Assembly: GCA_015232405.1 (NCBI GenBank)
Contig: JADFZS010000024.1
Coordinates: 1 to 49,214, forward strand
Source of the DNA: Magnetococcales bacterium
Lineage (GTDB): Bacteria > Pseudomonadota > Magnetococcia > Magnetococcales > JADFYX01
Reading direction: 5' to 3'
Length of the DNA: 49,214 bases
The notes under the pieces are model-generated. The model was not told the origin of the DNA, searched no databases, and saw only the letters and a program-made list of their open reading frames with translations. A program made the translations under genes and the position numbers. Positions 5,229 to 44,201 of this stretch are shown here, one piece after another. Numbering within the stretch: the stretch's first letter is position 1; the number at the start of each line of letters is the position of its first letter.

Positions 5229-7454
5229 ATGCAAATAGCACCGCTTCATGGATGGGGCCAGATATCTAGTTGGAGTAGTAGGAGATGGCTTGGGTTTTGG
5301 TTTTTCTGGTCTCTACTTGTCTCAGGGGTCTATTGGTTTTTGGGACCGTACTCCTACATAAGAATTCAAGATACAACAGATTTTAACCTAGCCTACCGTA
5401 TTGCCGCCGCCAAAGATTTTTTAGAATATGGCATAACCTACTGGCAGCCAAAATTTGCTGGTGGTATGCCGGCTTGGGTAATGCCCCTATTTGATAGTTT
5501 TTTAATAACCGGTCCACCATTTTATCTCCTCCCCCCATGGGCAGCCTACGGCTTTATAATGTGGCTTCAGCGGTTTATTGCTGGCTATTTTACTTACAAA
5601 CTCTGTCGCTCTTTGGGTCTTAATACAGTTGCCAGCCTTTTTGCTGGCATGGCTTTTTCTCTCAACAACTGGTCTGTCATTGATTGGACCCTGTTTGATG
5701 GACTTGGTCCCCCCGTAACTCCACTCTATCTCTATCTGTTTGATCGTATTTTAAGGGTACAAGCAAAAGTACGTGGTCTGATATTGGTGGGGTTGTTGGG
5801 TGTTTTTCTTGCCCTTGTTGCCTCTTCTGCTCTCTACACCATCTTTTTACTGTGCGGTCTGCCCATTTGGATTCTCTATATTCGTGATTTTTCATTTAGG
5901 GATGTCTGGCAATATTTTTTCGTTTTTATCTTCTGTGCGGTGGTGGCGGAGCTGCCTGGAGTTATAGCGATATTGAGCTTTGTTGAAGATAGCTCCCGCA
6001 GTCTGCCATGGGCATATGTTGTGCCATCATGGCCTGAGATATTCAGCCGCTATTGGCTACAGCTTAAACTGGATGTCACCAAATTTATCACTGTTTATGT
6101 CTGTTTGGCCCTGGTTGGTATGGCTCTGGTGCGTAGGTGGGAGAGTGTTACCAAACGACTTTTGCTTTTACTCGTGGCAACAATCGTCGGCTCGGAACTA
6201 TTGCAACTTGGTCAGGTGTTGTCAGGAGATATCCTGCCTCCTGTTAAGGGTAATCTACGGGATTTTGTCCAGTTTACCATCCTGTTTGGGGTGTTGGTTG
6301 GTGCAAGTGGTCTGAATCTTGTCATAAACTATATCGAGACCCACGAAAGAGTGCAGCCACACATTAAAAAGCAAGTTATAGTCTTCGTTGGGCTGTTGGC
6401 GGTCATCAACCCCATCATGGCTCTACACGATGTAACAACAAAGTTGGTAAAGCGTATCTACTTTGATAACTATCAAGCCAACTTTGCCTCTCCTGCTATT
6501 AAAAAATTTCGTGCCAAAACAGAAGGTGAAGAGCCGTTTCGTGTTGCAACCATGGTCTCCAACATGCCCGGTATAGGCAGTGAATCGGGAATGCAGTTTT
6601 ACCCCGGTTATACCTTTGCATATGGCTTTGATAGTATCGACGGCTATTATCGCATGTACTCCATGCGTAGTTATCAATATTGGTTGCTGGTAGTTGATGA
6701 TATTCTGGCCCATCATCCTATATATAAAGATTTTATAGCCAAAAGGCGGTATCTATTTACCCCCAATAACTATGCCTTTAGAAGCACACACAAACATCTC
6801 TTTTTTACCCCCAAAGAGACCATCCCATTTGCTAAGTGGTATAATCTGGATCTTCTCTCACTCAACAACACCCGCTATATATTTTCCCACTGGCCTTTGC
6901 AGCATCAAAATTTAAAACTGCTCTACAAGCCAGTCTCCGAACAGAGGGAGCGTGATAAATGGCAAAATTATGATAGAGAAGAGAGGATCTCTCAGGTGTT
7001 GCAAAAAAATTCGCCACCCCACGCTCTCTATATTTATGAGAATCTATCGGTAATTCCTAGAGCCTTTTTGGTAGGCGACATTGAGCAGCATGATGACCCT
7101 GAGACCCTGTTGATGAGTTTGAATAAAAAAACCGTAAAACAGCTCCAAAGCAGAGTATTGCTGCAAAAAGGGGTGCTAAAACAGCCAGATATCTATCCAA
7201 CAAAGCTGCAACAAAAGGATGTCTCAATCTCCTATCCCCGTCCTGACCGGGTGGTTATCAACAGTCAAAGTGATGGGGCTGCCATATTGGTGTTGACAGA
7301 TAATTATGACCGCTATTGGCGAGTGTGGGTGGACGGTGTTGAGGTAAAAATATTCCCAGCGTACCATATGTTTAGAGGTGTTGAGCTGGAAAAAGGCAAG
7401 CATGAGATAGTCATGGAATATTGGCCCCCATATCGTCTGAGCAGTGGCGGTTAG
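5229..7454 (+). CDS. YfhO-family membrane protein (GT-C type)
   Basis: 741 residues with multiple N-terminal membrane helices (20-400) and a large C-terminal extracytoplasmic part. The end contains the YfhO hallmark: a DNYDRYWRVWVDGVEV beta segment followed by FRGVELEKGKHEIVMEY. The YfhO family is assigned to GT-C-type membrane glycosyltransferases, implicated in Gram-positives in teichoic or lipoteichoic acid glycosylation; the acceptor here is unknown. The start has a good AAGGGG at 5219-5224, four bases from the ATG. The protein stops right after EYWPPYRLSSGG, where relatives often carry one more membrane helix. The next gene begins in the same reading frame at the codon after the TAG. Confidence 0.8.
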   Translation: MQIAPLHGWGQISSWSSRRWLGFWFFWSLLVSGVYWFLGPYSYIRIQDTTDFNLAYRIAAAKDFLEYGITYWQPKFAGGMPAWVMPLFDSFLITGPPFYLLPPWAAYGFIMWLQRFIAGYFTYKLCRSLGLNTVASLFAGMAFSLNNWSVIDWTLFDGLGPPVTPLYLYLFDRILRVQAKVRGLILVGLLGVFLALVASSALYTIFLLCGLPIWILYIRDFSFRDVWQYFFVFIFCAVVAELPGVIAILSFVEDSSRSLPWAYVVPSWPEIFSRYWLQLKLDVTKFITVYVCLALVGMALVRRWESVTKRLLLLLVATIVGSELLQLGQVLSGDILPPVKGNLRDFVQFTILFGVLVGASGLNLVINYIETHERVQPHIKKQVIVFVGLLAVINPIMALHDVTTKLVKRIYFDNYQANFASPAIKKFRAKTEGEEPFRVATMVSNMPGIGSESGMQFYPGYTFAYGFDSIDGYYRMYSMRSYQYWLLVVDDILAHHPIYKDFIAKRRYLFTPNNYAFRSTHKHLFFTPKETIPFAKWYNLDLLSLNNTRYIFSHWPLQHQNLKLLYKPVSEQRERDKWQNYDREERISQVLQKNSPPHALYIYENLSVIPRAFLVGDIEQHDDPETLLMSLNKKTVKQLQSRVLLQKGVLKQPDIYPTKLQQKDVSISYPRPDRVVINSQSDGAAILVLTDNYDRYWRVWVDGVEVKIFPAYHMFRGVELEKGKHEIVMEYWPPYRLSSGG

Positions 7455-24522: not shown

Positions 24523-25308
24523 ATGGGGTTGTTGGAAGGAAAAAAGGGTTTGATATTTGGTCTTGCTAACGATCGGAGTATTGCATGGGGCATATCCCAG
24601 GCGTGTCATCGTGAGGGGGCTAAATTGGGTTTTACCTATTTGGGTGAACCGTTGAAAAAGCGGGTTTTCCCACTTGCCGAGCAGGTTGATTCATCTTTTG
24701 TGCTACCGTGTGACATTAATGATGATGAGCAGATAGACGCTGTTTTTCGTGAGGTAAAGGAGAAGTGGGGTGGACTTGATTTTGTTGTTCATTCCATTGC
24801 ATTTGCTCAGAAGGAGGAGTTAAAGGGCCATTTTTACAACACCACAAGAGAGGGTTTTCGCATAGCTCTTGAGGCTTCGGCTTATTCTTTGACTGCAATT
24901 TGTGCCAAGGCGGCTCCGTTATTAAATGATGGAGGCAGTATTTTAACATTATCATATCTTGGGGCGGAGAAGGTTATACCTCATTATAATGTCATGGGTG
25001 TTGCCAAGGCAGCATTGGAGGCGAGTGTTCGTTATTTAGCTTCTGATTTTGGGCCAAGGGGTATTAGGGTAAATGCGATATCTGCTGGACCTATCAAGAC
25101 GTTAGCGGCTGCTGGTATTGGGGATTTTAAAGAGATTTTGAATTGGAACCGTGATAATTCACCGTTACGTCGTAATGTGACTCAGGATGAGGTGGGTAAT
25201 TCGGCACTTTTATTGTTATCTGATCTTGGCTCTGGGATAACGGGTGAGATTATGCATGTTGATGCTGGTTTTAATGTGGTTGGTATGAAATCGGTTGATA
25301 TTGATTGA
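24523..25308 (+). CDS. fabI: enoyl-[acyl-carrier-protein] reductase (NADH) FabI
   Basis: 261 residues, a short-chain dehydrogenase that reduces trans-2-enoyl-ACP in the last step of the fatty acid elongation cycle. The FabI-specific N-terminus [16 protein letters not shown] holds the nucleotide-binding loop. The active site is Y145, Y155 and K162 ([20 protein letters not shown]), matching the Y-x9-Y-x6-K pattern. [16 protein letters not shown] is the substrate-binding loop. FabI with this loop is the usual triclosan-sensitive type. AAGGG lies ten bases before the ATG. The gene is separated from aroC by a large palindromic region. Confidence 0.96.
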
Positions 25309-25464
25309 GGGTATATCTGTTTTGTTGTAGTTAAAACTAATGGGGGTCCAGGGGAATCATTTCCCTGGTGGGTTTGGGCGAAGCCCAAGGTTTTGCCTAT
25401 TAGCCGGATTTTATAGAGGATTTTTTTTCGCTTTTGAAAAAAAATCCCCGGCTGGTATATTAAT

Positions 25465-25512
25465 TACCAACTGGATAAAACCCTGGCTTTTTAGGGTTTT
25501 ATCCAGTTGGTA
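25465..25512. repeat. core hairpin 1 of the nested palindrome
   Basis: Perfect 20-bp stem, 25465-25484 with 25493-25512 (TACCAACTGGATAAAACCCT and its complement), around the 8-nt loop GGCTTTTT. Confidence 0.95.
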
Positions 25513-25588
25513 ATGTCCTTTACCTACCAATGGTCGGATCAACTTATAAGGTGTGAGTTGATCCGACCACTGGTAGGTAAAGGACATT
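25512..25588. repeat. core hairpin 2 of the nested palindrome
   Basis: 33-bp stem, 25512-25544 with 25556-25588, one mismatch (A25530 opposite C25570), around an 11-nt loop. It begins at the last base of hairpin 1. A stem this long would make a stable cruciform in DNA or an RNase III-type substrate in RNA. Confidence 0.95.
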
Positions 25589-25631
25589 GTTAGAGAATAA
25601 AAAACCAAAAAACGGTTTTTTATTCTCTAAC
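25589..25631. repeat. core hairpin 3 of the nested palindrome
   Basis: Perfect 18-bp stem, 25589-25606 with 25614-25631 (GTTAGAGAATAAAAAACC and its complement), around the 7-nt loop AAAAAAC. It starts at the base after hairpin 2 ends. Confidence 0.95.
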
Positions 25632-25847
25632 AATTAATATACTAGCCGGGGATTTTTTTTTGCAAAAAAATCCTTTATTAAATCCGGCTTTACAGCAAAA
25701 GCAAAACCTTGGGCCTTGCCCAAACCCACCAGGGAAATGATTCCCCTGGACCCCCAGTAATAAAGACTTTTCAAACACCCGGCATATTTACAAACCCTTT
25801 ATCTGGACCCAGATTAAAGCGCGCACATTTAAAAAAAGGATTGCTCT

Positions 25848-26939
25848 ATGTCCGCAAACAGTTTTGGACGCCTGTTTTGCTACACAACCTTCGGCGAAAG
25901 CCACGGACCAGCCATCGGTGCTATCGTCGATGGCTGCCCAGCTGGAATGCCCCTCACCGAAGCCGATATTCAACACGATCTGGATCGCCGCCGCCCCGGT
26001 ACAAGCCGCTTTACCACCCAACGTAAAGAACCAGATACAGTACAAATACTATCCGGGGTTTTTGAAGGAAAAACAACAGGAACCCCCATCGGACTGATGA
26101 TCGTTAATCAAGATCAACGCTCCAAAGATTACTCAAAAATCAAAGATACCTTCCGCCCAGGACATGCCGATTATACCTATTTTCGTAAATATGGCATACG
26201 TGACTATCGCGGTGGCGGAAGATCCTCAGCTCGAGAAACCGCTATGCGTGTGGCAGCTGGTGCTATCGCTAAAAAACTGCTGCTACACACAGGAGTGAAA
26301 GTCCATGGCGCACTCGTAGCTATGGGTGAAGAGGATATCGAATATAACAATTGGAGCTGGGCCGAAGTCGCAAAAAATCCCTTCTTCTCCCCAGACGCCA
26401 ATGCCGTTCCACGCTTTGAAAAACTAATGGACGAAATAAGAAAAAAAGGTGACTCCGTTGGTGCAACAGTTGAGGTAGTCGCCCAAGGTGTTCCACCAGG
26501 ATGGGGCGAGCCTGTTATAGATCGTCTGGATGCCGACCTGGCCAAAGCCATGATGAGTATCAACGCCGTTAAAGGAGTGGAAATAGGGGCTGGTATGCTC
26601 GCCGCAAGAGGTAGAGGTTCCGAAATGGCAGATGAAATGATACCAGACGAAAAAGCCAAACATGGGGTGAAATTCTTAAGTAACTACTCCGGGGGTATTC
26701 TCGGTGGAATCTCCAGTGGAGCTGATATAGTAGTAAGAATAGCCGTAAAACCAACATCATCCATCCATATTCCCAAACAAACCATAGATAAAAACGGCAA
26801 TGCCCAAGAGATCGTCACCCACGGTCGCCACGATCCATGTGTCGGCATAAGAGCCGTACCCGTAGCCGAAGCCATGGCTGCAATAGTACTAGCCGACCAT
26901 TTCCTACAAAACCGCAGCCGGGCAAATATATTCCCATAA
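25848..26939 (+). CDS. aroC: chorismate synthase
   Basis: 363 residues. Catalyses the FMN-dependent conversion of EPSP to chorismate, the end of the shikimate pathway. The three family signatures are present: [18 protein letters not shown] (17-34), a [22 protein letters not shown] block near residue 125, and the late [22 protein letters not shown] precedes the ATG by seven bases. The coding strand is C- and A-rich at silent positions, unlike the G/T-rich nuo genes and fabI just upstream on the same strand. The gene converges with the following minus-strand gene across 26 bp. Confidence 0.96.
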
Positions 26940-32045: not shown

Positions 32046-32069
32046 TTAAACTGCTGTTTCTAGGTTAAA
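32046..32069 (+). repeat. possible remnant end of the CCTAGAAAC element
   Basis: CTGCTGTTTCTAGG (32051-32064) is the same as one end of the 32754-32916 element and is flanked on both sides by TTAAA (32046-32050 and 32065-32069). The other end is absent. It may be a solo end left after a deletion. The rest of the 131-bp gap between the methyltransferase and the DUF2442-HTH gene holds only a weak 9-bp inverted repeat (32061-32069 / 32115-32123). Confidence 0.45.
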
Positions 32070-32146
32070 AGCAACTGACCAGGACAATGATACCCTGAGG
32101 GAAGACGGAAAGACTTTAACCTATTTGGTATAAACCGACGTTCTGA

Positions 32147-32638: not shown

Positions 32639-32748
32639 TGATTTTCTCCCACTCAGCGAGGAGTTCATCCCGGTTGGTTTTTATCCACTTGAGAGCTTCT
32701 TTGGCTTCATCGACACCGATACCAATAATTCTTAGATCTGACAAGACT

Positions 32749-32753
32749 ATCAT
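32749..32753. repeat. target-site duplication, left copy
   Basis: ATCAT; its twin is at 32917-32921, on the other side of the element. Confidence 0.8.
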
Positions 32754-32916
32754 CCTAGAAACAGCAGTTGTCAGCACGCACCTGACGCAACCTATTGATT
32801 CATCTGGCATAACAGATCAAAGTCTCATCACCAATAAGGTGACTTCGATTTGCTCTGTTACACCAGCTAAACCAATATGTTACGCCATGTACGCACCGCC
32901 AACCGCCGTTTCTAGG
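32754..32916 (-). mobile_element. 163-bp full-length palindromic MITE-like element, 5-bp target duplication
   Basis: The element begins CCTAGAAAC and ends GTTTCTAGG, and the whole length folds into one hairpin. ATCAT lies directly on both sides on the plus strand (32749-32753 and 32917-32921), as expected for a 5-bp target-site duplication. It encodes no protein and interrupts a DUF4160 gene. Written as minus-strand RNA, the stem pairs over roughly 60 positions with about four true mismatches and a dozen G.U pairs, then a bulge and a final 9-bp stem with an apical CACC/GGTG loop. The mobilising transposase is not in the window. Confidence 0.85.
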
Positions 32917-32921
32917 ATCAT
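32917..32921. repeat. target-site duplication, right copy
   Basis: ATCAT; pairs with 32749-32753. Deleting one copy with the element restores the DUF4160 frame. Confidence 0.8.
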
Positions 32922-44055: not shown

Positions 44056-44113
44056 TTAATCCTAGAAACGGCGGTTGGCGGTGCGTGCTGACAACAGCTG
44101 TTTCTAGGTTAAT
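44056..44113 (+). mobile_element. short internally deleted copy of the palindromic element with TTAAT duplication
   Basis: The element itself is 44061-44108 (48 bp), beginning CCTAGAAAC and ending GTTTCTAGG. TTAAT stands directly on each side (44056-44060 and 44109-44113). Its first 26 bases equal those of the long copy at 32754-32916 read on the minus strand, and its last 28 match with one difference. It lies in the 165-bp gap between the SQR-like gene and tusA; nothing else notable is in this gap. Confidence 0.8.
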
Positions 44114-44201
44114 AGCAATAACACCCACATGTAAAAGATTTTAAGGCTTGTTCCAATACGCTTTTATTTGTGTTCAATTATAAAACCATGTTGCGTTGAA
44201 G

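Follow-up and report, generated by a model that had tools for sequence, protein, structure and literature searches.

Head-to-head copies of a dispersed four-hairpin repeat between fabI and aroC: a candidate 3′-UTR module in Magnetococcales

We found that a 416-bp palindrome between fabI and aroC of a Magnetococcales bacterium is, judging by comparison of its copies, two head-to-head (inverted) copies of a ~195-nt four-hairpin unit. In our reading, to which we give a probability of about 0.6, each half is a 3′-UTR RNA element that shapes mRNA 3′-ends, and a pair is a two-way module between transcription units. The grounds for it are the existence of a repeat family, its placement and direction after stop codons, strand-specific G·U pairs, covariation, and conservation across species. 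Positions given without a label refer to the window, i.e. the whole 49,214-nt stretch of DNA that was analysed; its own assembly is designated G000.

Structure of the fabI–aroC palindrome

The palindrome (25341–25756) is real, as judged by repeat finding on the window and by RNA folding. Folding of the region as RNA, which the preliminary description had proposed as a check, gave −308.9 kcal/mol, compared with −112.5 ± 6.6 for shuffled sequences (z = −29.7, 0/100). The complementarity described for its arms was recovered both in the outer parts (25338–25396 and 25701–25759, 59 nt, 95%) and in the inner ones (25437–25465 and 25632–25660, 29 nt, 97%). Three core stems do abut, but they are slightly longer than the 20, 33 and 18 bp first reported, measuring 22 bp (25463–25484/25493–25514, perfect), 33 bp (25512–25544/25556–25588, 97%) and 21 bp (25586–25606/25614–25634, perfect). 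Both neighbours are housekeeping genes, as had been noted: the element starts 30 nt past the fabI stop codon, and aroC starts 89 nt past the element end. A misjoined assembly is very unlikely, since the same structure occupies the same place in two other genomes of the genus, G001 and G002.

Table 1. Features of the fabI–aroC region in the window. Both half-units belong to the covariance model's own sequences, and their E values are self-including.
Feature	Position	Strand	Basis
fabI, enoyl-ACP reductase	24523–25308	+	NCBIfam matches to FabI, ORF
Left half-unit, sense to fabI	25338–25531	+	Copy comparison; covariance-model match 25338–25537 (+), E 6.7e-50 (self-including)
hp1 of left half, CCAGGG..CCCTGG, one G·U pair on the sense strand	25348–25368	+	
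hp2 of left half, TTGGGC-GAA-GCCCAA, then GGTTTTGC; terminator-like in + direction	25374–25388	+	Terminator scan
hp3 of left half, GCCGG..CCGGC stem around GGATTTTTTTTC/GAAAAAAAATCC hairpin	25403–25452	+	
X hairpin of left half, 22 bp perfect, 8-nt T-rich loop	25463–25514	+	
Middle hairpin from the two inner tails (GTCCTTTACCTACCAATGG...), 33 bp	25512–25588	no strand	Repeat finding
Right half-unit, inverted, antisense to fabI and aroC	25566–25759	−	Covariance-model match 25563–25759 (−), E 1.2e-51 (self-including)
X hairpin of right half, 21 bp perfect	25586–25634	−	
hp3 of right half	25645–25688	−	
hp2 of right half, terminator-like on − strand	25709–25723	−	Terminator scan
hp1 of right half	25729–25749	−	
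aroC, chorismate synthase	25848–26939	+	NCBIfam TIGR00033 and NF003793, above cut-off

The repeating unit and its families

Copy comparison gave the order of a half (family B, ~195 nt) as TARTGGGGG, hp1, hp2, GGTTTTGC, hp3, GTATATTA, X and a tail, GTCCTTTACCTACCAATGG. The general form of hp3 is GCCGG, an enclosed T-run/A-run hairpin and a closing CCGGC, while X in B units is a 20–22-bp hairpin. The half is the repeating unit, and it is often found alone; the 33-bp middle hairpin of the window element comes from pairing of the two halves' tails, which occur in solo halves as well. The suggestion of a nested set of palindromic elements is thus borne out in part, in that the locus holds a repeated multi-hairpin unit twice, in opposite orientations. 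The lowest-energy fold is indeed a cloverleaf on a long stem, but what evolution keeps are the local hairpins inside each half. We rejected a single 416-nt cloverleaf as the functional unit because of the solo halves and because paired halves diverge yet each stays self-complementary, as in copy C280, where hp3 differs between the two halves. Co-occurrence of the core hairpins, earlier offered as a sign of one element, holds for order, length and position, which are fixed, but the sequence of X is different in nearly every copy.

The window's own assembly contains 88 matches to the element and ~50 covariance-model matches, solo or in head-to-head pairs, of which the weaker ones are related repeats; these copy sets rest on partial sampling by search tools in draft, metagenome-type assemblies. 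A second family, A (~230 bp), has hp1 and hp2 in common with B but not hp3 or X, and its ends are MITE-like with TATAGT-type inverted termini, TATAGTAAATTC... and ...ATCACTATA; among 119 candidates, 40 were scored and all 40 were strong matches. Intra-element gene conversion was rejected, as similarity between the two halves of one element (0.84–0.94) is close to that between halves from different elements (mean 0.87). A transposon with an internal transposase was likewise rejected: no B copy examined contains one.

Several further observations concern arrangement of the repeats. Inverted B halves lie ~2.1 kb apart, as a wider pair, at both L023:5266–7397 and L025:230–2367, enclosing a gene for a TPR-repeat protein and one for a membrane protein with an Ala/Val/Gly-rich low-complexity stretch, respectively; we judged this gene content to be incidental. 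G001 has a short element remnant at the place of the L023 pair. In alignment A1, sequence types flanking X (columns 137–146 and 201–210) co-occur with no obvious pairing: TATATTA with GTCCTTTAC, GCTTCTAA with GCTATTTGC, and TATATCA with GCAAGTTAC. A second dispersed repeat, CCTAGAAACAGCAGTTGTCAGCACGCACC and variants, is present in direct and inverted orientation at 32049–32074, 32747–32782, 32891–32918 and 44059–44118 of the window, and its motif adjoins a B half at C111 (L028, just before 4094). Another MITE-like repeat was seen in G001 (L156, about 5470–5700), with ends TATAGTGA..TCACTATA and a hairpin, ATTCCCGCGTAGGCGGGAAT, which we take to resemble the Neisseria dRS3 repeat.

Placement and orientation relative to genes

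B units mostly begin a few to ~30 nt past stop codons and read in the direction of the gene. At least one half is sense after a gene in 10/10 head-to-head pairs with both sides readable, and in the three species rich in units the sense half of such pairs begins 8–50 nt past the stop codon. Solo halves are sense-downstream in 19/23 cases, typically at a distance of 5–30 nt; one further solo half, L025:230+, lies 2 nt past the end of a contig-end open frame. For family A the placement is sense-downstream in 29/30, with 19 copies between convergent genes and none between divergent ones. In other families of the order 23/37 matches are sense-downstream and 3 lie between divergent genes, a weaker sense bias; gene calls were ORF-based in the three-species set and came from a crude codon-usage caller in the other families. 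In tandem-gene contexts one half per pair is antisense to both genes.

Conservation across species

Three Magnetococcales species of a single genus (G000, G001 and G002) carry the unit in abundance. The covariance model gave strong matches only in these and one in G004, plus weaker matches across most families of the order. Inspected remote cases (G039, G013, G032, G012, G017, G023 and G047) show much the same order of hairpins, their X sequences being unrelated, and head-to-head pairs were seen remotely in G039 and G047; this model-based sample favours X, since the covariance model rewards it. X as a universal feature of the order is not supported, as it is present in only 3/21 remote hp1–hp2 loci picked regardless of X, and X-bearing units are therefore, by this sampling, one subtype among order-wide hp1–hp2 repeats. 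A search of Rfam gave no match at gathering threshold, and a permissive search found only generic hairpin families below their thresholds. In G001, contigs L151, L153 and L155 end inside the palindromes; long inverted pairs thus probably break short-read assemblies and are undercounted.

The fabI–aroC halves are 86–94% identical between the three species over their first 120 nt, and the left half is no better conserved than the right one, which runs antisense to both genes. Fourfold sites of fabI and aroC are 49–59% different between the same genomes. In G003 and G015 the fabI–aroC spacers are a few tens of nt or less, with no element, and are too diverged for a target duplication to be read. 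For at least seven B positions of G000, G001 or G002 carries a B site at the matching gene junction, including fabI–aroC, rfbA–rfbC, the site downstream of rfbD, one on the pyrimidine-gene contig and three others.

These data bear on an alternative that we consider unlikely: a non-autonomous mobile element of MITE/REP type, inserting close to stop codons and lacking a host function, its structure and orientation being shaped by insertion preference and purging of harmful insertions. Such an element would agree with the many copies, the MITE-like ends of family A, the degenerate IS630-type transposase pieces that we found and the order-wide occurrence of hp1–hp2 repeats. However, the shared gene junctions argue against it, as does the fabI–aroC site, where fourfold positions are strongly diverged, yet paired changes keep the structure; neutral fossils would lose pairing. 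In addition, no copy was found with a transposase inside, and B showed no clear target duplication.

Covariation and strand-specific wobble pairs

Covariation in B halves is very strong. In 36 aligned halves, 97.5% of the cells of a five-helix structure are paired, and there are 292 double-change cells versus 70.3 ± 7.5 in shuffled alignments (0/500) and 36–56 in slid controls. The conserved structure is the local helices, not the long arm-to-arm stem, as seen in C280 with its two different, each self-complementary, sets of hp3 arms.

The preliminary description had seen no bias to G·U among stem mismatches. This turned out to be an averaging artefact, because two oppositely directed halves were mixed: when each half is counted in its own orientation, a strong G·U bias emerges in hp1 and hp2. 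On the sense (inward) strand, mismatches in hp1 and hp2 of families A and B are G·U in 48 cases and A·C in 2, the 48 including many copies of one ancestral pair, so that independent events are fewer; G·U is also found at more pair columns of the alignment than A·C. A T-rich X loop on the sense strand was seen in 35/37 copies and in 30/32 remote ones. The sense-strand bias and the T-rich loop imply that a single-stranded sense molecule matters, of which RNA is the simplest reading, and hp1 and hp2 look selected as RNA. The earlier proposal of a structured RNA, too, is right in part. DNA-level structure, previously rated at least as likely as RNA, is not the favoured reading for hp1 and hp2 and may hold for X.

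The hypervariable hairpin X

X arms vary widely between copies, orthologues included, while their length stays 20–22 bp; the arm sequence of the left half in the window is unique to that copy among aligned copies. About 97% of X pairs are Watson–Crick and ~1% G·U (about 8 G·U and 5 A·C in ~756 cells), whereas hp1 and hp3 of the same units carry G·U in about a third of copies, one pair each. Orthologous X stems show 63 changes of both arms versus 9 one-arm changes (last, misaligned row excluded). Being almost without wobble, unlike hp1 and hp3, X is not explained by RNA selection alone. The data fit maintenance by an enzyme that reads duplex length (RNase III, or an exonuclease block) or template switching between the arms, the two not being exclusive. 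Compensatory changes in hairpins have been reported to arise by template switching (PMC8794818), and we infer that such copying during replication may keep the X arms matched.

Two sites suggest instability of the pairs. At L156:5403–5443 of G001 there is a ~40-bp palindrome in which two hp1 ends are joined directly, GGGGGTCCAGGGGAATGATTTCCCTGGACCCCC; it looks like a collapse product of a full head-to-head pair, and the rfbD site of G001 resembles the scar of a deletion rather than an empty site. We rejected a lack of SbcCD as the reason for the survival of long palindromes, having found an sbcD gene.

A DNA-level hairpin or cruciform, serving as a recombination, replication or protein-binding site, with X arms kept by template switching or a DNA-binding protein, could draw on the scarcity of wobble in X, the excess of two-arm changes, the reported template-switch changes and the instability to which the apparent scars point. 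We regard it as distinctly improbable, as the G·U pairs of hp1 and hp2 and the T-rich X loop suggest a single-stranded sense molecule, and DNA use gives no account of siting after stop codons. Loop inversion, a mark of template switching, is essentially absent in X, though loop selection could mask such events. For the DNA structure used in recombination that had been suggested earlier, no evidence of such a function was found. Integron attC sites, considered for CCTAAC-like inner motifs, were dropped as the element was judged to be without attC anatomy.

Proposed function as a 3′-UTR module

In the 3′-UTR reading, four local stem-loops in a row, starting a few to ~30 nt past the stop codon, would be transcribed with the upstream gene. 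A half would slow or end transcription, hp2 with its U-rich tail being terminator-like, and would leave an mRNA 3′-end that long hairpins may shield against 3′–5′ exonucleases. X could serve as a sequence-free 20–22-bp duplex, an exonuclease block and/or a cleavage site for RNase III. Two head-to-head halves would then make a two-way insulator that separates neighbouring transcription units. In the terminator scan, hp2 and X were found only in each half's own inward direction (7 sites versus 0.9 expected). By the criterion for intrinsic terminators (a G+C-rich stem with a direct U-tract), hp2 fits weakly (GTTTTGC tail), and X, which has no U-tract after its full stem, is by sequence not a canonical intrinsic terminator; termination thus remains a putative step.

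A broader version, which we hold only tentatively, is an order-wide class of Magnetococcales 3′-UTR RNAs whose last hairpin, X, is hypervariable, with ~16–22 nearly perfect Watson–Crick pairs and a U-rich loop, since a processing enzyme recognises it purely as a duplex and/or its arms are continually re-copied from each other by template switching. The dozens of copies, several at the same locus across species, are a natural data set on stem pairing during sequence turnover, with wobble-tolerant hairpins in the same molecule as X as an internal control. If the function holds, this would be a general 3′-end or insulation system of magnetotactic bacteria, and a warning that MITE-like repeats between genes may function as 3′ UTRs.

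Comparison with known repeat systems

REP/BIME repeats of Escherichia and Pseudomonas, for which roles in termination and mRNA stability have been proposed (PMC3733652), resemble the B unit in being dispersed, extragenic and palindromic, near stop codons, and single or in inverted pairs. REPs measure 20–40 bp, bear a GTAG or CGTC tag and have a RAYT partner, whereas the B unit is ~195 nt with four different hairpins; neither tetranucleotide was found at B unit ends, the outer ends being TARTGGGGG. Matches to Y1_Tnp number 6 in G000 and 1 fragment in G002, with none detected in unit-bearing G001 (the genomes are incomplete). A RAYT-driven REP was set aside, the tag being missing and the transposase patchy.

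Features of MITEs (terminal inverted repeats with TA ends, 70–300 bp, no coding capacity) were seen in family A and not in B, the element of the window. Family A, with ~230 bp and TATAGT-type inverted ends, resembles Correia/NEMIS and other MITEs. Descriptions of Correia elements place them mostly upstream of genes, with promoters, whereas A and B lie downstream in fixed orientation. SPRITE is a repeat family resembling terminators, as outlined in PMC10969869; it is set apart by description only, as a four-hairpin architecture and a variable perfect hairpin are not part of that outline.

Like X, RNA hairpins maintained by template switching have long stems that stay paired via compensatory changes (PMC8794818); they are described for rRNA and microRNA, whereas X is one hairpin of a dispersed repeat with a conserved loop strand. 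REPs at most 15 nt from a stop codon stall ribosomes, according to work cited in PMC12306157, and transcribed Correia elements are cleaved by RNase III (PMC2649163; PMC10969869). By analogy, both may be taken as precedents, for ribosome stalling and RNase III cleavage, for the four-hairpin unit.
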